DNA of 64,000 nt from Iocasia fonsfrigidae. GTDB lineage: Bacteria > Bacillota > Halanaerobiia > Halanaerobiales > DTU029. Below the pieces are notes generated by a model. That model saw only the letters and a list, made by a program, of their open reading frames with translations, searched no databases and was not told the origin of the DNA. Position 1 is the stretch's first letter. Each line of letters opens with the position of its first letter. The stretch spans positions 476,137 through 540,136 of the forward strand of contig NZ_CP046640.1 of assembly GCF_017751145.1 (NCBI RefSeq), written 5' to 3'. Both the position numbers and the translations under genes were made by a program. Positions 13,662 to 53,141 of the stretch are shown in pieces.

Positions 13662-13800
13662 CGAGATTGTGGATAACTTTGAAAACCGACAGATATATTT
13701 GTCTGGTTAATAGTTTATTGATTAACTATGTGTAATAAATAGTTTAAGTTAAGAAGGCTGATGTATTTGATTAAGTCTGGCTAGCGAAACCATTTTATTC
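13662..13800. repeat. IS91-derived non-autonomous unit, short form
   Basis: It contains GATTGTGGATAAC near its left end, the short hairpin CCGACAGATATATTTGTCTGG (13686-13706), and the tail TTAATAGTTTATTGATTAAC shared with units at 17103 and 24182. The right-end hairpin (GGCTAGCGAAACCATTTT, then ATTC rather than GTTC) is degraded. It fills the gap between the barrel gene and the convergent small gene. Confidence 0.7.
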
Positions 13801-13812
13801 TTCAAGTAATTT

Positions 13813-14031
13813 TTAGTATTTGATTTCATCGGTAGTTATTATTTTTTCTTTAAAATATTTGAGTTCATTGATAGTATTGTTAAGTATGTCAATTGCTTCA
13901 TTGATATTATCAATGGTAGCTACCTCTTCATCCTGGTCTCGATCCCAGATTTTTAGAAGGTTTTCTAGTGTTTCTCGCATTCTATAGCGGCAGGCATCTT
14001 TATATTTGTTGCTGGTCATTAAATCAACCAT
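13813..14031 (-). CDS. Small hypothetical helical protein
   Basis: A 72-residue acidic protein of unknown function, predicted all-helical from its heptad-like Leu/Ile spacing (IDNINEAIDILNNTINELKYFKEKI). No signal peptide or membrane segment. On the minus strand, the ATG at 14031 is preceded by AAAGGGGG at good spacing, which supports it as a real gene despite its size. It lies downstream of the radical SAM gene on the same strand, with a 106-base gap containing a palindrome. No family recognised. Confidence 0.55.
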   Translation of the reverse strand: MVDLMTSNKYKDACRYRMRETLENLLKIWDRDQDEEVATIDNINEAIDILNNTINELKYFKEKIITTDEIKY

Positions 14032-16789: not shown

Positions 16790-16929
16790 CGGTTAGGATT
16801 ATAGATAACTTTGAAGGCCGACAAATACATTTGTCTGGCCTATGATAACTAGTAACTTTGTAAGAAGTATTTCTAAGTAAAGTTAATAATTAGTTTTTAA
16901 GTTTGGATGGCTGCGAAGCCATTTTGTTC
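16790..16929 (+). repeat. IS91-derived non-autonomous unit 0 (short form)
   Basis: About 140 bases. The left end TTAGGATTATAGATAACTTT resembles the IS 5' end. The short hairpin GGCCGACAAATACATTTGTCTGGCC is at 16816-16840. The right end is the hairpin GGATGGCTGCGAAGCCATTTT followed by GTTC (16926-16929). No gene. Confidence 0.72.
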
Positions 16930-17198
16930 AAGTTTAGGAAATTATGCAATTTTAAAATTGTGGATAACTTTAAAGGCCGACAAATATATTTGTTTCCCTT
17001 GTCGTGCGCTGCGGTGTCCTACCTCCGCTTACTGTCGAGAAATTCTCCTTCGGCGTCCTGCCTGCGGATAATTTCTAGAGTCGTCCAACAAATATATTTG
17101 TCTGGTTAATAGTTTACTGATTAACTATGGGTAATAAATAGTTTGAGTTAAGAAAGTTGATGTTTTGATTAAGTCTGGGTGGCGTAGCCATTTTGTTC
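16930..17198 (+). repeat. IS91-derived non-autonomous unit 1 (long form)
   Basis: About 269 bases, starting exactly after the GTTC of unit 0. The left end (AGGAAATTATG...GTGGATAACTT) matches the left end of the transposon at 17471. A nested hairpin element occupies 16975-17105, and the right end GGTGGCGTAGCCATTTT plus GTTC (17195-17198) matches the transposon right end. Open reading frames across it are accidental. Confidence 0.8.
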
Positions 17199-17470
17199 AA
17201 GTTTAGGAAACTATGCAATTTTGAAATTGTGGATAACTTTAAAGACCGACCAGTATATTTACTTACCTTGTCGTGCACTATGGCGTCCTGCCTTCGTTTA
17301 CTGTCGAGAAATTGTCTTCCGGCGTCCATGCCTCCAGACAATTTCTAGAGTCGTCCAGTAAATATATTGGTCTGGTTTATTATGATGAGTAGTTAACTTT
17401 GAGTGAAAAGTGGTTCTAAGAAAAAATTAATAATTAGTGATTAAGTCTGGGTGGCGGAGCCATTTTGTTC
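17199..17470 (+). repeat. IS91-derived non-autonomous unit 2 (long form)
   Basis: About 272 bases, starting after the GTTC of unit 1 with the same left end as unit 1. Its nested hairpin element (17244-17375) has different but still complementary arms (CGACCAGTATATTTAC / GTAAATATATTGGTCTGG). The inner stem AGAAATTGTCT / AGACAATTTCT (17307-17317 / 17336-17346) is perfectly paired. It ends with GGTGGCGGAGCCATTTT and GTTC at 17467-17470. Confidence 0.8.
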
Positions 17471-17486
17471 AGGTATAGGAAATTAT

Positions 17487-18857
17487 GTGTTAAGCAGGTT
17501 TGTGGATAACTTAATAGAATTAATAAGTATTATGAAAAGAAAAGAGATACAAAAACAACATACGATTAAAAAAATATTTACTCATAATAATAACTGGAAA
17601 ATCTTTAAGGATAACAGATTATCAGAAGTGGTTCCAGCTGATATGATAGATGATGTAATTGAACAGGTTGAAAGGGCATTGGGTTGTGGAAATCCTGAAA
17701 ATGGATATACTTTATATAAATGTCTTGAATGTGGTCATGAGCATATAATTGGATTTAGCTGTAAAAGTCGTTTTTGTGTACGATGTGGCAAGAAATATAT
17801 AGATAATTGGGTTGAGAAACAAGTAGAGAATATACTTGATACAAGTCATAGACATTTAGTATTTACATTACCAGAACAATTAAGAGGGTATGTATATTGG
17901 CATAGAGATTTATTGAAAGATATGTGCGATGCAGTAAATGAATTAATTCAAGATTACTATGATAAACAATCAAAGGAAAAAGAATATCAAGTTGGAGTAA
18001 TAACAGTAGTTCATACTTTTGGGAGGGATGTAGGGTTTAATCCTCATATCCATGCTCTATTAACAGAAGGAGCATTAGATAAATATAAGCAGTGGAAGCA
18101 TATTGGATATATTTCATATCCATATTTAAGAAAGTCATGGCAGAAAGTATTACTTAATATATTTCGAAAGTATTTCAAAGAGGGCTTAAAGGTTCAGAAT
18201 TTAGTAAGAGAACTGTATCAAAAATATCCTAATGGATTTTATGTAAATGCTGAATCTAGACTAATTAATGCTAGAGGTGCAACTAGATATATTGGTAGAT
18301 ATCTAGCACGTCCAGCTATGGCTGAATATAGAATACTAGAGTATGATGGTAAGAAGGTAAGGTTTTGGTATGAAGACCATAATACGAAAAAAAGAAAAGA
18401 ATTACTGCTTGATGTATTAGACTTTATAGGTAGATTGATAATGCATGTACCTAAAAAGTATTTTAAGATGGTAAGAAGATATGGGTTATATAGTAGAGGT
18501 TTTAATAAAAAAGTAAAAAAGATAGTATCACTATGGAAATACATGAAGAAAAGACAGTTAAAACTAATAGTGGTAGAAAAGAAAAAAAGAGTAATGAGAT
18601 GGCGAGAAAATATTATAAAAAGTTTTGATAGAGACCCATTAATATGTAGGAAATGTGGTTCGGAGATGGTATTATATGAGATATGGAGTCCTAAACATGA
18701 TTTTATTTATCATTTTGAACATACAGATGAAAATGGACGACATATAAAAAGATATCCATGGGAGGAGGATCCTAGAATTGAAAGACGAAAAAGAGCGAGA
18801 CAACTGGGAACTACCATTCCATTCCCCGGACCACCAAGAAGAATGGTATGTTTATAG
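17487..18857 (+). CDS. IS91-family transposase, copy 1
   Basis: A 456-residue HUH-type rolling-circle transposase. The N-terminal zinc-ribbon is visible as CLECGHEH...CKSRFCVRCGKKY (about 85-115). The HUH metal motif is NPHIHALLTEG (about 205) and the candidate catalytic tyrosines lie in TRYIGRYLARP (about 285). A second CxxC pair (CRKCGSE) is near residue 395. GTG 17487 follows AGGA by 6 bases; ATG 17532 is an alternative without a ribosome binding site. It nicks one DNA strand at the element's right end and drives rolling-circle transposition. It differs from copy 2 by Gly-to-Asp near residue 233 and a silent change at 17609. Confidence 0.92.
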   Translation: MLSRFVDNLIELISIMKRKEIQKQHTIKKIFTHNNNWKIFKDNRLSEVVPADMIDDVIEQVERALGCGNPENGYTLYKCLECGHEHIIGFSCKSRFCVRCGKKYIDNWVEKQVENILDTSHRHLVFTLPEQLRGYVYWHRDLLKDMCDAVNELIQDYYDKQSKEKEYQVGVITVVHTFGRDVGFNPHIHALLTEGALDKYKQWKHIGYISYPYLRKSWQKVLLNIFRKYFKEGLKVQNLVRELYQKYPNGFYVNAESRLINARGATRYIGRYLARPAMAEYRILEYDGKKVRFWYEDHNTKKRKELLLDVLDFIGRLIMHVPKKYFKMVRRYGLYSRGFNKKVKKIVSLWKYMKKRQLKLIVVEKKKRVMRWRENIIKSFDRDPLICRKCGSEMVLYEIWSPKHDFIYHFEHTDENGRHIKRYPWEEDPRIERRKRARQLGTTIPFPGPPRRMVCL

Positions 18858-19047
18858 ATGTCCAAAGTGTGGGATGGATGATCATGTACCTGATTTTGTA
18901 GTAGATGAGTTTGCAATGGTTCAAAAATTGAAAGAAGGGGAAATGCCTGGAGTGGCATGTCCTGAATGTCTTACAAAGATGGTTTTTGAATCATCTTATA
19001 TTAAATACCCCTACCGTAAAACAGAAGGGGATTCTGAGTTGCAGTAG
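18778..19047 (+). CDS. Zinc-ribbon-like small protein overlapping the transposase end (copy 1)
   Basis: An 89-residue frame overlapping the last 80 bases of the transposase in another frame. TTG 18778 lies 8 bases after a strong GGAGGAGG ribosome binding site located inside the transposase gene. The protein is acidic and has two CxxC pairs (CPKCGMDD and CPECLTK, about residues 28 and 61), a treble-clef or ribbon-like arrangement. I do not recognise the family. Translation would be coupled to the transposase, so a regulatory or accessory role in transposition is inferred. A spurious frame remains possible because both copies in this window are nearly identical and give no test of selection. 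Confidence 0.5.
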   Translation: MKDEKERDNWELPFHSPDHQEEWYVYRCPKCGMDDHVPDFVVDEFAMVQKLKEGEMPGVACPECLTKMVFESSYIKYPYRKTEGDSELQ

Positions 19048-19084
19048 GGTGGCGTAGCCATTTTGTTCAGGTATAGGAAATTAT

Positions 19085-20455
19085 GTGTTAAGCAGGTTTG
19101 TGGATAACTTAATAGAATTAATAAGTATTATGAAAAGAAAAGAGATACAAAAACAACATACGATTAAAAAAATATTTACTCATAATAATAACTGGAAAAT
19201 CTTTAAAGATAACAGATTATCAGAAGTGGTTCCAGCTGATATGATAGATGATGTAATTGAACAGGTTGAAAGGGCATTGGGTTGTGGAAATCCTGAAAAT
19301 GGATATACTTTATATAAATGTCTTGAATGTGGTCATGAGCATATAATTGGATTTAGCTGTAAAAGTCGTTTTTGTGTACGATGTGGCAAGAAATATATAG
19401 ATAATTGGGTTGAGAAACAAGTAGAGAATATACTTGATACAAGTCATAGACATTTAGTATTTACATTACCAGAACAATTAAGAGGGTATGTATATTGGCA
19501 TAGAGATTTATTGAAAGATATGTGCGATGCAGTAAATGAATTAATTCAAGATTACTATGATAAACAATCAAAGGAAAAAGAATATCAAGTTGGAGTAATA
19601 ACAGTAGTTCATACTTTTGGGAGGGATGTAGGGTTTAATCCTCATATCCATGCTCTATTAACAGAAGGAGCATTAGATAAATATAAGCAGTGGAAGCATA
19701 TTGGATATATTTCATATCCATATTTAAGAAAGTCATGGCAGAAAGTATTACTTAATATATTTCGAAAGTATTTCAAAGAGGACTTAAAGGTTCAGAATTT
19801 AGTAAGAGAACTGTATCAAAAATATCCTAATGGATTTTATGTAAATGCTGAATCTAGACTAATTAATGCTAGAGGTGCAACTAGATATATTGGTAGATAT
19901 CTAGCACGTCCAGCTATGGCTGAATATAGAATACTAGAGTATGATGGTAAGAAGGTAAGGTTTTGGTATGAAGACCATAATACGAAAAAAAGAAAAGAAT
20001 TACTGCTTGATGTATTAGACTTTATAGGTAGATTGATAATGCATGTACCTAAAAAGTATTTTAAGATGGTAAGAAGATATGGGTTATATAGTAGAGGTTT
20101 TAATAAAAAAGTAAAAAAGATAGTATCACTATGGAAATACATGAAGAAAAGACAGTTAAAACTAATAGTGGTAGAAAAGAAAAAAAGAGTAATGAGATGG
20201 CGAGAAAATATTATAAAAAGTTTTGATAGAGACCCATTAATATGTAGGAAATGTGGTTCGGAGATGGTATTATATGAGATATGGAGTCCTAAACATGATT
20301 TTATTTATCATTTTGAACATACAGATGAAAATGGACGACATATAAAAAGATATCCATGGGAGGAGGATCCTAGAATTGAAAGACGAAAAAGAGCGAGACA
20401 ACTGGGAACTACCATTCCATTCCCCGGACCACCAAGAAGAATGGTATGTTTATAG
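19085..20455 (+). CDS. IS91-family transposase, copy 2
   Basis: A 456-residue transposase with the same zinc-ribbon, HUH motif (NPHIHALL) and tyrosine region as copy 1. It is intact, with Asp instead of Gly near residue 233. Both copies could therefore be active. The GTG start is in the context AGGAAATTATGTG. The near identity over 1.6 kb points to a recent duplication, or to rolling-circle replication through the element end. Confidence 0.92.
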   Translation: MLSRFVDNLIELISIMKRKEIQKQHTIKKIFTHNNNWKIFKDNRLSEVVPADMIDDVIEQVERALGCGNPENGYTLYKCLECGHEHIIGFSCKSRFCVRCGKKYIDNWVEKQVENILDTSHRHLVFTLPEQLRGYVYWHRDLLKDMCDAVNELIQDYYDKQSKEKEYQVGVITVVHTFGRDVGFNPHIHALLTEGALDKYKQWKHIGYISYPYLRKSWQKVLLNIFRKYFKEDLKVQNLVRELYQKYPNGFYVNAESRLINARGATRYIGRYLARPAMAEYRILEYDGKKVRFWYEDHNTKKRKELLLDVLDFIGRLIMHVPKKYFKMVRRYGLYSRGFNKKVKKIVSLWKYMKKRQLKLIVVEKKKRVMRWRENIIKSFDRDPLICRKCGSEMVLYEIWSPKHDFIYHFEHTDENGRHIKRYPWEEDPRIERRKRARQLGTTIPFPGPPRRMVCL

Positions 20456-20645
20456 ATGTCCAAAGTGTGGGATGGATGATCATGTACCTGATTTTGTAGT
20501 AGATGAGTTTGCAATGGTTCAAAAATTGAAAGAAGGGGAAATGCCTGGAGTGGCATGTCCTGAATGTCTTACAAAGATGGTTTTTGAATCATCTTATATT
20601 AAATACCCCTACCGTAAAACAGAAGGGGATTCTGAGTTGCAGTAG
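20376..20645 (+). CDS. Zinc-ribbon-like small protein overlapping the transposase end (copy 2)
   Basis: Identical at protein level to the 89-residue frame of copy 1, with the same TTG start after GGAGGAGG and the same two CxxC pairs. It ends 18 bases before the right-end hairpin of the element. The interpretation and doubts are those given for copy 1. Confidence 0.5.
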   Translation: MKDEKERDNWELPFHSPDHQEEWYVYRCPKCGMDDHVPDFVVDEFAMVQKLKEGEMPGVACPECLTKMVFESSYIKYPYRKTEGDSELQ

Positions 20646-20756
20646 GGTGGCGGAGCCATTTTGTTCTTAAAATTAATTTTTATCAACTCAGGTGCAAATC
20701 ATGCAGGATTTTAAGGGGAATTGGATAATATTATATAGCAGAGGATGGTGAGTAAA

Positions 20757-24003: not shown

Positions 24004-24276
24004 TTTAGGCAGGAAATTATGTGAGTTGCCGGATTGTGGATAACTTTGAAGGCCGACAGATATATGTGTTTCCCTTGTCGTAAGCTGCGGCGTCCTACCT
24101 CCGCTTACTGTCGAGAAATTCTCCTTCGGCGTCCTGCCTACGGATAATTTCTAGAGTCGTACAACAAATATATCTGTCTGGTTAATAGTTTATTGATTAA
24201 ATATGTGTAATAAATAGTATAAGTTAAGAAAGCTGGAATTTTTGATTAATCCGGATGGCCGCAAGCCATTTCGTCC
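24004..24276 (+). repeat. IS91-derived non-autonomous unit, long form
   Basis: The left end AGGAAATTATGTG...GTGGATAAC matches the transposon left end. A nested hairpin element lies at 24051-24181, with arms GGCCGACAGATATATGTGT and ACAAATATATCTGTCTGG. The tail TTAATAGTTTATTGATTAA is shared with the units at 13706 and 17105. The right-end hairpin (GGATGGCCGCAAGCCATTT) ends in CGTCC instead of GTTC. The remaining bases up to flgM hold only the promoter described at 24399. Confidence 0.8.
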
Positions 24277-30483: not shown

Positions 30484-30930
30484 ATGCTAGTGGAAACCAG
30501 TAATTTTGGTAAGATTGAGATTAAAAAGGAAAAGATGATAGATTTTATTGAACCCATTTTAGGTTTTGAGAAGTATAAAAGATTCACTATAATTGATAAT
30601 CTGGAAGACGATATATTTTACTGGCTGCAGTCTCTTGATAGACCAGACCTGTCCTTTATTATGATTAATCCCCTGGCCTTTGTTGATAAATACAATCTTA
30701 GTATCCCTCTTAAGTTTCAGCAGAGACTCAAGTTGGAGGAAGACTCTGAGGTGGTTTTCTATACTATTGTGGTTATTGACCAGACTACAGGGGATATACG
30801 GACAAACCTGAAGGCCCCGGTTATCATTAATACAGACAATAATAAAGCAGTTCAGCTTGTGCTGGATGAGGAATATCCGACGCGTTTTTATCTCTTTAAA
30901 GCAGATCCAGTAGTAGAAGGAACAGGGTAG
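30484..30930 (+). CDS. fliW: Flagellar assembly factor FliW
   Basis: A 148-residue beta-rich protein with the FliW signature FIEPILGFEKYKRFTIID and LDRPDLSFIMINPLAFV. FliW binds either flagellin or CsrA: when free flagellin is scarce, FliW sequesters CsrA and so relieves repression of flagellin translation. ATG 30484 follows GGGAGATG. csrA begins 16 bases downstream, reproducing the fliW-csrA pair of Bacillus. Confidence 0.95.
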   Translation: MLVETSNFGKIEIKKEKMIDFIEPILGFEKYKRFTIIDNLEDDIFYWLQSLDRPDLSFIMINPLAFVDKYNLSIPLKFQQRLKLEEDSEVVFYTIVVIDQTTGDIRTNLKAPVIINTDNNKAVQLVLDEEYPTRFYLFKADPVVEGTG

Positions 30931-30946
30931 CAGCCAGGGGGTAGTC

Positions 30947-31204
30947 ATGTTAATATTAAGCAGGAAAAAAGATGAAAGTATCATTATAGATGATAAGATC
31001 AAGATTAAGGTAATAGATATTGACGGTAACCGTATCCAACTGGGGATATCGGCCCCTGAATCGATTACTATCCACCGGGAAGAGGTCTATCTGGAAATAC
31101 AGGAAGAGAATAGAATGGCAGCCTTAGAGAAGGTCAACCTCTCAGAACTGGCAGCCAACTTAAAAAAAGGGGCATCTCAAAAGAAAAATAAAAAGGGTGA
31201 ATAG
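30947..31204 (+). CDS. csrA: Carbon storage regulator CsrA
   Basis: An 85-residue RNA-binding translational repressor. MLILSRKKDESIIIDDKIKI and the RIQLGISAPESITIHREEVY core are canonical; the C-terminus (about 60-85) is longer than in Proteobacteria and basic, as often seen where FliW controls CsrA. Target sites would be GGA-containing hairpins in the flagellin leaders (see 34149-34188). ATG 30947 follows AGGGGG. It is the last gene of the flgM-csrA operon and is followed by the flagellin promoter at 31252. Confidence 0.96.
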   Translation: MLILSRKKDESIIIDDKIKIKVIDIDGNRIQLGISAPESITIHREEVYLEIQEENRMAALEKVNLSELAANLKKGASQKKNKKGE

Positions 31205-31277: not shown

Positions 31278-31337
31278 GTATAATGCAGGGAGGCAAGGAG
31301 GCTTTCCTGACAAAATACATCAAGGAGGATGATTGGT

Positions 31338-32168
31338 ATGATTATCAATCACAATATTAGTTCCATGAACGCTTTGAGGAATCTTAGCGTAAACTCAAAC
31401 GAGATGTCCAAGACAATGGAGAAGTTATCATCAGGTTACCGCATTAACCGGGCTGCTGATGATGCTGCTGGGCTGGCTATCTCTGAGAAAATGCGGGCAC
31501 AGATTAGTGGTCTAAAGCAGGCACAGCGTAATGCCCAGGATGGTATCTCCCTAATGCAGACTGCTGAAGGATCTATGGCTGAGGTGCACACTATGTTAAG
31601 GAGGATGCGTGACCTGGCTATCCAGGCTGCTAACGGTACCAATAGTGATTCTGAAAAAGCCAAACTCCAGTCTGAGGTAGATCAGTTAGTATCTGAAATT
31701 AGTGGTATTGCTGACAGAACAGAATTTAACGCTATGAAATTATTGAATGGTAGTATTGCTAATGTTTCCTTCCAGATCGGTGCTAATGCTAACCAGACTA
31801 TTGAGGTAGGTTTGACAGACATGAGGATTACTGGTGGAGCAGATGCGACTATTACTGCTCTTGACTCATTAAGTATTTCAAATGCTGCTGATGCTCAGAC
31901 TGCTATTGGTACTTTAGATGCGGCCATCAGTACTATTTCAGCCACACGTTCTGACTTTGGTGCTGTGCAAAACAGGTTGGAACACACTATTAAGAATCTG
32001 GCTACTACTGAAGAAAATCTGCAGGCCTCTGAATCACGTATTCGTGATGCAGATATGGCTGCCCAGATGTCTGCTTTAACTAAAAATCAGATTCTGCAGC
32101 AGGCCGGTACTGCTATGTTGTCCCAGGCTAACATGAAATCTCAGACTGTTTTATCACTTCTGGGATAG
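31338..32168 (+). CDS. hag: Flagellin (first copy)
   Basis: A 276-residue filament subunit with short central domain. The conserved D0/D1 ends are complete: N-terminal [16 protein letters not shown], the [15 protein letters not shown] helix, and C-terminal [25 protein letters not shown]. Residues 160-200 form the variable, surface-exposed part. Start is ATG 31338, 8 bases after GGAGGA; ATG 31329 abuts that site. It is secreted through the flagellar export system with FliS as chaperone. Very similar to the second flagellin at 34199 except in the middle. Expression is probably sigma-28 dependent and CsrA-repressed. Confidence 0.95.
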
Positions 32169-34135: not shown

Positions 34136-34148
34136 ATATTTATGAAAG

Positions 34149-34188
34149 AAGCAGGGACTGTTTCTTTACAAAATTATATCAGGGAGGA
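34149..34188 (+). promoter_or_regulatory. Candidate CsrA binding sites in the flagellin leader
   Basis: AAGCAG-GGA-CTGTTT (34149-34163) folds into a six-pair hairpin with GGA as the loop, the preferred CsrA target. A second GGA lies in GGGAGGA (34182-34188), which is also the ribosome binding site. This two-site layout mirrors the hag leader of Bacillus subtilis. Confidence 0.6.
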
Positions 34189-34198
34189 TGATGTGACT

Positions 34199-35020
34199 AT
34201 GATTATTAATCATAACATCAGTTCAATGAATGCTTTGAGGAATCTTAACGTAAACTCAAACGACATGTCCAAGACAATGGAGAAGTTATCATCAGGTTAT
34301 CGGATTAACCGTGCTGCTGATGATGCTGCCGGACTGGCTATCTCCGAAAAAATGCGTGCCCAGATTAGTGGTCTGAAGCAGGCCCAAAGAAATGCCCAGG
34401 ATGGTGTTTCTATGATTCAGACTGCTGAAGGTGCTTTAGGTGAAGTGCACAACATGTTAAGGAGAATGAGGGATCTAGCTTTACAGTCAGCAAACGGTAC
34501 CATTAAGGCTGAAGACCGCCAGAAGGTTCAGGCTGAGGTTACCCAGTTAATTGGTGAAATCAGTGGTATTGCTGATAGGACAGAATTTAATGGTATGAAA
34601 CTAATTAATGCTTCTGCCGTTGCCGCTGGTAACGTTTCTTTCCAGATTGGTGCTAATGCAGATCAGGTTATTGAAATTGGTTTGAAAGATATGGGTGCTA
34701 GTAATTTAGGTGTTGACGGGGTTAGTGTATCAACTGCCGCTGATGCCCAGACTGCTCTTGGTTCATTAGATGCAGCTATCAGTGCTGTTTCAGCATTCCG
34801 TTCTGACCTTGGTGCCGTCCAGAATAGGTTGGAACATACCATGAAAAACCTGGCTACTACTGCAGAAAACCTACAGGCCTCTGAGTCCCGTATCCGTGAT
34901 GCAGACATGGCTGCCGAGATGTCTAATTTGACCAAAAATCAGATCTTACAGCAGGCTGGTACTTCTATGTTAGCACAGGCTAACATGAAATCTCAATCGG
35001 TCATGAGTCTTTTTGGTTAA
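34199..35020 (+). CDS. hag2: Flagellin (second copy)
   Basis: A 273-residue flagellin with intact terminal helices ([41 protein letters not shown]) and a short variable middle. Compared with the copy at 31338 the first 100 residues are nearly identical; differences concentrate at 100-200. ATG 34199 is chosen because GGGAGGA precedes it by 10 bases and because the transcript predicted from the sigma-28-like promoter begins at about 34142, where an in-frame ATG would lack a leader. Translation is probably under FliW-CsrA control. It directly precedes the Maf-type glycosyltransferase, which probably modifies it. Confidence 0.95.
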
Positions 35021-51896: not shown

Positions 51897-53141
51897 GTGA
51901 AGTTTTTCGACAGGAACTTAGTTAAAATGTTTCTTTTTTCTCTTTTAACTTGTACCTTGCTTTATGTTACATATGGTTTAGGATTTGAAGTTTTTTTAAA
52001 GTATAAAAGCTTTATACAGTATAGTCTATATTTTGTTTTTCTAATTGGTTTTATTTTGAGTGTCTTTTTCAATAAGAGTAGGGTCTTTTTCATCCTATTA
52101 CTGTTTTTTTTGCTTAACATATTTCTCGGCCCTGTGGGTTATGAACTATTGAAAGGGGCAGGGGCTTTTTTTCTCCCATTTTCTATTGTTTTCTTTATTA
52201 TAAGTATAAATATTATTATTGTCTCTTTTTATCGGGAAAGGGGGATATTTACTACCTGGGGATTAAGGCGTATTTTTATTATTTTTGGACAGTTATATAT
52301 TCTTTATCTGCTAGTTACAAATAAATCCCTATATCAAGGTTTGCTGAGCTGTCTTAATAGTGACTTTTTATATCTGGGATTTCTGCAGAATCATTTTCAG
52401 GCTGCTGAGTTTTTAGTAGTATTATGGCTGTTGGCTTTTCTTGTCTTATTAGTTAAAGGTTTGGAACAGGCTGAAGATTATGCTTTTTTGTTTTTGCTTA
52501 TACAGCTTTTTGTAACTATGTTTTTCCTGAAGGAATATCCCGGGATTTTACTATTGAAGTTTGCCTTTTTGTCTGTCCTGGCGCTTAATATAGCTATGAT
52601 CAAGGATTTTTACTCAATGGCTTATCATGATGAGTTAACAGGCCTTCCTGCTAGAAGGGCTCTGCGTGAGGAGTTGTTGAAACTGGGTAATAGTTATTCC
52701 ATAGCCATGTTAGATATTGACTTTTTTAAGAAGTTTAATGACAAATATGGTCATGATATTGGTGACCAGGTCTTAAAAATGGTGGCTGCTATGATGAAAA
52801 GGACAAAGGGGGGAGCCAGGGTATTTAGATATGGGGGCGAGGAATTTACCATCGTCTTTGCTGGTAAGGGTGTTAAAGAGGCCTATGATTATTTAGAGGA
52901 ACTGCGCAGGGATATTGCTGATCATCCCTTTATTATCAGGAGTAAAAAGAGACCCCCCCAAAAACCTGATCAGGGTAAAAAGACGTCTTATCCGGCAGGC
53001 ACGGAAAAGACTAAGATTACAGTGAGTATAGGTGTTGCTGAGAAAAAGGCTAGTCATGATAATGCTGCTGAAGTTATTAAGGAGGCTGATCAGGCCTTAT
53101 ATAGGGCAAAGAAAAAGGGAAGAAATAGAGTTGAGTATTAA
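51897..53141 (+). CDS. Membrane-bound diguanylate cyclase (GGDEF)
   Basis: A 414-residue protein. Residues 1-235 contain about seven or eight hydrophobic helices, an integral membrane sensor of unknown ligand. The GGDEF domain follows: DELTGLPARRALREEL (about 248), AMLDIDFFKKFNDKYGHDIGD and the active-site RYGGEEF (about 313), then KITVSIGVAEKK and YRAKKKGRN. No RxxD inhibition site stands before GGEEF. It makes cyclic di-GMP, which usually suppresses motility. GTG 51897 follows AGGGAGGATGG. It lies between yjfB and cheY; the HD-GYP sensor at 9273 could oppose it. Confidence 0.9.
   Translation: MKFFDRNLVKMFLFSLLTCTLLYVTYGLGFEVFLKYKSFIQYSLYFVFLIGFILSVFFNKSRVFFILLLFFLLNIFLGPVGYELLKGAGAFFLPFSIVFFIISINIIIVSFYRERGIFTTWGLRRIFIIFGQLYILYLLVTNKSLYQGLLSCLNSDFLYLGFLQNHFQAAEFLVVLWLLAFLVLLVKGLEQAEDYAFLFLLIQLFVTMFFLKEYPGILLLKFAFLSVLALNIAMIKDFYSMAYHDELTGLPARRALREELLKLGNSYSIAMLDIDFFKKFNDKYGHDIGDQVLKMVAAMMKRTKGGARVFRYGGEEFTIVFAGKGVKEAYDYLEELRRDIADHPFIIRSKKRPPQKPDQGKKTSYPAGTEKTKITVSIGVAEKKASHDNAAEVIKEADQALYRAKKKGRNRVEY

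Follow-up and report, generated by a model that had tools for sequence, protein, structure and literature searches.

Introduction

The closest described counterpart of the sequence studied here is the TwoAYGGAY RNA motif, catalogued as Rfam RF01731 and presented by Weinberg et al. 2010 (PMC2864571). Within Rfam, this motif shares clan CL00106 with the CsrB/RsmB sRNAs (RF00018). CsrB is specified by a single-copy gene for a trans-acting sRNA with many repeats. The module that we describe has in common with these sRNAs several GGA-bearing hairpin loops; unlike them, it is ~130 nt long and mobile, has no recognised promoter and occurs in four genomes without detectable CsrA.

High-copy bacterial repeats are usually taken as narrow, lineage-specific debris, and bcr1, BOX, Correia and REP are indeed restricted to narrow taxa. 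Like these repeats, the module is short, intergenic, high-copy, hairpin-forming mobile DNA, but it spans a phylum and beyond, shows compensatory change and rides in unrelated carriers. It also differs in size and in its three-way fold from the REP/RAYT system, in which palindromes of 20-40 nt tagged GTAG/CGTC are linked to a Y1 transposase. One structured module with compensatory change, unrelated carriers, a range of at least one phylum and scores below Rfam thresholds contrasts with the usual picture. It provides a testable case that selection on a transposon's passenger nucleic acid, rather than on its ends or enzyme, helps decide which short elements flourish, and an approach to TwoAYGGAY, itself an unexplained motif. 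The element is not described in the accessible parts of the literature on TwoAYGGAY, Halanaerobiales repeats, bcr1 and structured MITEs, nor in those on the repeats of A. arabaticum, including PMC7290912.

Copies of the core in the window and their fold

The window, that is, the whole 64,000-nt stretch of DNA that was analysed, corresponds to G000:C1:476137-540136 in the genome of Iocasia fonsfrigidae (G000, hereafter the own genome), which consists of one 3.93-Mb contig. The module, or core, folds as a three-way junction whose outer stem P1 encloses the arms P2 and P3. The window copies and their parts are as follows:

16977..17105, minus strand (orientation + in model R1): core copy 1, 129 nt, 157.1 bits
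17246..17375, minus strand: core copy 2, 130 nt, 149.4 bits, arms CCGACCAGTATATTTACT / AGTAAATATATTGGTCTGG
24053..24181, minus strand: core copy 3, 129 nt, 147.9 bits
1..157, minus strand: right part of a long-variant core, 80.2 bits, G000:C1:476131-476293
16977..16994, no strand assigned: P1 left arm of copy 1, pairing with 17087-17105
17087..17105, no strand assigned: P1 right arm of copy 1, pairing with 16977-16994
17004..17032, minus strand: P2 hairpin of copy 1, folding-strand loop UAGGACA
17035..17079, minus strand: P3 hairpin of copy 1, folding-strand loop CAGGACG, with a G-N-A internal loop
17304..17349, minus strand: P3 hairpin of copy 2, loop CAUGGACG, the inner stem of the first-pass annotation

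That annotation had placed long copies at 1-156, 16975-17105, 17244-17375 and 24051-24181, coordinates that proved correct within a few bases, and the pairing of arms and inner stems that it proposed for them was confirmed by base-pair counts. With 16 pairs counted per copy and the two outermost omitted, the inner arms of copies 1, 2 and 3 formed 16/16, 15/16 plus one G-T, and 15/16 Watson-Crick pairs, respectively. RNA folding yielded z-scores of -4.5 to -6.2 on the plus strand and -5.0 to -5.5 on the minus strand, and none of 200 shuffles folded as well on either strand. The long-variant core begins 6 bp to the left of the window (G000:C1:476131) and has an extra arm of ~50 nt.

Covariance model R1 was built from an alignment (A1) of 41 own-genome copies, taken from 43 with omission of a 240-bp copy at 52458 and the copy at the window edge. 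It delineated a core family of 93 matches in the own genome at E<=0.01, in which remnant copies are also present. In several own copies (52462, 2317024, 2566337, 2631386, 3916300 and others), an insert of ~64 nt falls precisely within the P3 loop and in most cases leaves AUGGA in place; other copies have an extra arm of ~50 nt ahead of P2. Convergent inverted core pairs, formed by two subfamilies and ~10-80 bp apart, are frequent, both in the own genome (1710335/1710477, 3239663/3239521, 3440630/3440487 and 3909280/3909135) and in G047 (L160, L153 and L169).

Compensatory change in the wider family

Across the own copies, arms change as linked pairs (ACAGATATATTTGT with ACAAATATATCTGT, ACAAATATATTTAC with GTAAATATATTTGT, ACCAATATATTTAC with GTAAATATATTGGT), with exceptions such as those at 847721 and 878210. 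In A1, 14 of the 43 pairs changed on both sides. Paired cells amounted to 95.8% versus 91.3% in shuffles and to at most 46% when partners were slid by 1-3 columns, and both the pairing rate and the covariation score beat all 500 shuffles. Under a tree-aware null, none of the 43 pairs exceeded the null maximum in the own-genome copies alone (best E ~0.1); thus, covariation could not have been established from the window and its genome. We joined 92 further matches to the own copies (alignment A2), with the caveat that the added rows were fitted to the structure, and discarded from the resulting 133 rows all duplicates and any row in which gapped letters exceeded 20. In the 127 distinct sequences of this wider family, 16 of the 43 structural pairs lay above all 73,100 values of the tree-aware null and 30 above its 99.9th percentile, while none of the 3612 non-structural column pairs rose above the null maximum. 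Between genera, the sequences of P1 and P3 are even entirely replaced by others, with their pairing retained. The covarying arms and inner stem claimed by the first-pass annotation are therefore real at the level of the wider family but not demonstrable in the own copies alone, and its proposal that folding is under selection, as RNA or as single-stranded DNA, is supported by this wider covariation.

It is very unlikely that the module has no function, the paired changes stemming from shared ancestry or from hairpin-templated correction while copies decay. Templated correction should close the G-N-A internal loops as well, and these remain open; such an origin is also at odds with the wider-family counts and with the reappearance of the fold in another phylum, even though the failure of the own copies in the tree-aware test, the remnants, and short forms resembling deletions between self-palindromic arms would all suit it.

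The strand that folds

As read on the plus strand, 85 inferred changes led into A-C and 42 into G-U (binomial p = 1.7e-4), a count that omitted column pairs 18-165 and 83-107, the latter being unpaired outside the own genome. Since an A-C on one strand is a G-U on the other, the A-C excess on the plus strand indicates that the reverse strand folds. The folding strand is the minus strand, the reverse of that read by the first-pass annotation, as evidenced by this wobble asymmetry, by the G-N-A internal loops and by the A(N)GGA hairpin loops. Apical loops on it read A(N)GGA(Y): among 130 distinct copies, GGA occurs in the loop of P3 in 122, of P2 in 119 and of both in 113. The mean GGA count is 5.1 on the folding strand versus 0.5 on the opposite one (115 copies shorter than 150 nt). 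The P3 internal loop is G-N-A on both sides in 105/130 copies, and that of P2 is G-N-A/G-N-A in 58/130 and GA/GA in a further 44. The junctions GCGACTCT and GGCAAGCGG are conserved as well.

Stems as close to perfect Watson-Crick pairing as these (134 wobble cells against 5013 canonical ones on the folding strand) would also suit a palindrome or cruciform that acts solely as double-stranded DNA, e.g. as a site for a protein or for gyrase. We give this explanation a low probability, as mismatches are distributed asymmetrically between the strands (the above 85 versus 42) and the purine-only internal and apical loops are confined to one of them.

Kinship with TwoAYGGAY

At the gathering threshold, Rfam produced no match in the whole window. 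At a loose threshold, RF01731 matched a G039 core in L124 over its full length and on the predicted strand with 26.9 bits, the best score of any core and below the gathering score of 43 bits; in the own genome, TwoAYGGAY had no match at E<=1. Reciprocally, the top two ranks of a second model of the module, R2, went to TwoAYGGAY loci of G039 (E 0.004 and 0.022); of these loci, one does not itself reach the Rfam cut-off. In both families, an outer stem encloses a pair of hairpins whose loops read A(N)GGAY, in the same strand sense, and this hallmark of TwoAYGGAY, two AYGGAY-type loop hairpins, is evident in the 113 of 130 copies with GGA in both loops. The module differs by its G-N-A internal loops, its junctions and up to 93 dispersed matches per genome. 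Because the reciprocal matches are weak and no core attains the gathering score, we call it kin to TwoAYGGAY and not a member. The two dispersed TwoAYGGAY copies in G039 (L133, L134) share a long outer inverted repeat, which suggests that this motif, too, may be carried by MITEs.

Distribution across genomes

R1 found matches in 8 of 41 relatives, the own genome counted, and in 10 of the 59 genomes of the class, a figure that rose to 12 when R2 was included. At the level of the phylum, R2 matched at least 15 of 398 genomes (E<=0.001) in a search that scored eight candidates per genome, which makes its copy numbers and genome counts lower bounds. At least five further genomes of Bacillota carry the family, and full searches recovered 89 matches in G047, 30 in G039, 29 in G324 and 10 in G097. 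A pattern scan of named genomes, in which 7 of 11 loci had model matches, further uncovered a core in two Omnitrophota MAGs, confirmed by the model with 54 bits each.

Unrelated transposons carry the core

The window units that surround or adjoin the cores are the following:

16930..17198, plus strand: non-autonomous IS91-like unit around core copy 1, with TGTGGATAA near its left end and right end GATTAAGTCTGGGTGGCGTAGCCATTTTGTTC
17199..17470, plus strand: non-autonomous IS91-like unit around core copy 2, right end GGGTGGCGGAGCCATTTTGTTC
17471..19068, plus strand: full IS91-like element, copy 1, 1598 bp, immediately preceded by GTTC and with GTTC at its end
19069..20666, plus strand: full IS91-like element, copy 2, in tandem
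16798..16929, plus strand: short unit without core, single palindrome CCGACAAATACATTTGTCTGG
13665..13820, plus strand: short unit without core, CCGACAGATATATTTGTCTGG

The first unit starts after the GTTC at 16926-16929. An IS91-like unit encloses the core, as the first-pass annotation had anticipated in describing a nested element: the outer repeats have the same left (GGAAANTATG...GTGGATAACTT) and right ends as the IS91-like elements, with the core replacing the transposase. The transposase CDS of 17471..19068 runs to 18857 and encodes an HUH Y2 transposase with a zinc domain (Y2_Tnp and Zn_Tnp_IS91 domains, PF04986 at 124.5 bits and PF14319 at 82.2 bits, HIH and YIGRY motifs). All eight full IS91-like copies lie, by eye, directly after GTTC or after the GTTC end of the preceding unit. 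They have no inverted-repeat ends and end in TGGC-GNA-GCCATTTTGTTC, their hairpin right end finishing in TTTTGTTC; the insertion site was base-checked for the two window copies. The carrier thus shares with the IS91 family Y2_Tnp, Zn_Tnp_IS91, HIH, YxxxY, GTTC insertion and the hairpin right end, whereas the folded core is absent from the autonomous IS copies and other genomes have it in other carriers. Of the 93 own-genome matches, three of which had little or no flanking sequence to examine, 54 have an IS91-like left end no more than 60 bp away and 28 a right end no more than 330 bp away.

In G324, five identical copies reside in a MITE with 20-bp inverted ends and near-duplicate edges AAAATAAAAT, itself nested in a DDE-transposase element (PF01609) with 10-bp target duplications. 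The G047 carrier is, by eye, a different MITE-like mosaic with inverted ends ATTGATATATTGTTGCAGTTT. Occurring in IS91-like units, the G324 MITE and the G047 mosaic, the core is shared cargo of several unrelated small transposons. The same distribution would be expected if the core were an independent mobile element, inserted into other transposons by some further enzyme, and own copies with little or no carrier (461019, 468581 and 470731) as well as the short units without core are in line with such nested insertion. We consider it distinctly unlikely: P1 ends show by eye no constant target site or duplication, no constantly linked gene was noticed among the loci read, and the short units fit deletion equally well as empty sites.

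Type C units, with the arrangement cacttttccgttc[core]cacaaagcattagtgtg, represent a third carrier type of ~10 copies, at G000 767147, 1804792, 1862394 and seven more positions, all locked to replication. In G324, a T-box leader (RF00230, 128.9 bits; L216 1694-1920) adjoins a core. The TGTGGATAA stretch at the left ends of IS91-like units and IS copies is an exact match to the DnaA-box consensus; it occurs at 16961-16975, at 17230-17245 and near 17515 in the window and in own-genome carriers, while TTATCCACA also adjoins cores in L132 and L143. DnaA boxes dispersed in this manner might titrate DnaA.

Gain and loss at a host locus

We compared a response-regulator/sugar-binding-protein locus of Halanaerobium (genus inferred) in nine genomes, leaving aside G037, which matched but ends at a contig end. 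Downstream of the response-regulator gene, G026 and G030 have a complete core and G034 has a partial one, a remnant; none is present in G020, G032, G033, G035, G036 and the related G017. G032 and G033 keep, by eye, sequence like the outer flanks of the core. This pattern of presence, remnant and absence indicates that the core is not kept there by host need. In the own genome, both neighbour genes oppose the folding strand at 68 of the 93 copies, so that read-through RNA of the folding strand would be rare. At 54 non-own loci, 53 with both neighbours called, orientation relative to the neighbour genes was mixed. Regulation of host genes is disfavoured by this mixed orientation and by the presence/absence pattern in Halanaerobium. 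Given the multiple carriers and the gain and loss at a fixed locus, selection seems to act on the spreading element and not on a host gene.

Orientation relative to replication

In the own genome, GC skew turns from positive to negative at ~2.0 Mb, indicating replication outward from near position 0. All 71 own-genome matches of at least 80 bits are oriented consistently with replication. Below a 2.1-Mb border, picked after inspection of the data, 51 matches are plus and 2 minus, and above it 35 are minus and 5 plus. An IS91-like copy at 2.081 Mb is minus and a core at 2.097 Mb plus, so that no single border can fit both. Seven own copies are reversed; they belong to a divergent subfamily and are inverted inside normally oriented units, five adjoining a clear GAACAAA end and two a degraded one. 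Both core orientations occur in G047, G039 and G324. The lock is therefore not a property of the core, as the inverted own copies in normal units also show, but belongs to the IS91-like carrier. From established HUH transposition, it may reflect strand-specific insertion at the fork, which would make the strict replication-locked orientation of the carrier a clean natural record of such insertion.

The module might alternatively work as folded single-stranded DNA, a priming or recognition site (primosome-assembly site, single-strand origin or a hairpin recognised by a strand-specific transposition enzyme) that aids the replication or movement of its carriers. This is a possible but unlikely explanation. 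It would need no promoter, and it would accommodate the orientation lock of the 71 own copies, the HUH type of the IS91-like carriers and the degradation of the core at the fixed host locus. The lock, however, is the carrier's, with mixed orientation in three other genomes, and the G324 carriers are of the cut-and-paste type, with ~10-bp target duplications. In IS608, it is the GTTC-reading strand that is transferred; if that strand were transferred here as well, it would not be the folding strand. The G324 core had no blastn match in plasmids, and viral contigs yielded none for two core patterns, one of them that of the G324 core. In favour of the explanation, AAGCGG, the E. coli primosome-site hexamer, lies in the folding strand of 60/130 copies; we found no primosome-site paper with AAGCGG. 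The phiX174 primosome assembly site region has CGCCGAAGCG and AAGCG-type words in common with some cores, a resemblance noticed post hoc and without a model match (6.6 bits). In a comparison that was likewise post hoc, the phiX174 F-G intergenic region scored 29 against the cores, a value reached by 2 of 100 shuffles.

A candidate RNA decoy for CsrA-type proteins

The module is a conserved, strand-specific fold of ~130 nt carried as transposon cargo, and its likeliest role, which we put forward tentatively from its loops and its kinship, would be that of an RNA decoy or shield for a protein of the CsrA/RsmA type. The folded strand would act as RNA, with its pair of A(N)GGA loops available to a GGA-binding protein of this kind. 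By analogy with the CsrB clan, the RNA would serve as a decoy or shield the element's transcripts, and copies keeping the fold would spread or persist better, which would be the basis of selection. Of 17 element genomes, 15 have a CsrA gene that scores above the cut-off, compared with 9 of 15 controls (p = 0.11). No CsrA exceeded the cut-off in G097, G138, G442 and G443, and the 21-bit CsrA match in G097 falls, by eye, in an S1-domain-like protein; these four element genomes weaken the case for CsrA as an obligate partner. A broader version of the decoy reading, according to which transposons of Bacillota and Omnitrophota independently acquired one RNA module as a mobile decoy for a CsrA-type GGA-binding regulator, or for some equivalent in genomes without CsrA, appears to us doubtful; if true, mobile DNA scattered over as many as ~90 sites per genome would be exploiting a regulatory protein of the host.

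We also considered an sRNA with its own promoter. Between 16780 and 17520, around the window copies, four promoters were found versus 2.4 expected, no clear excess, and no terminators, which leaves the discrete ~130-base transcript suggested by the first-pass annotation unsupported and argues against such an sRNA.

Cores lie ~4-11 kb from csrA in G000, G001, G026, G030 and G047, a proximity for which a rough, post hoc and exploratory estimate by hand gave a chance of ~0.01. In the window, a FliW-like gene (by eye) adjoins csrA at 30484-31105 (sites G000:C1:507083 and 2635410). The flagellar cluster there includes two flagellin-like genes (by eye), at 31329-32168 and 34142-35020, with stretches that are 80-85% identical.
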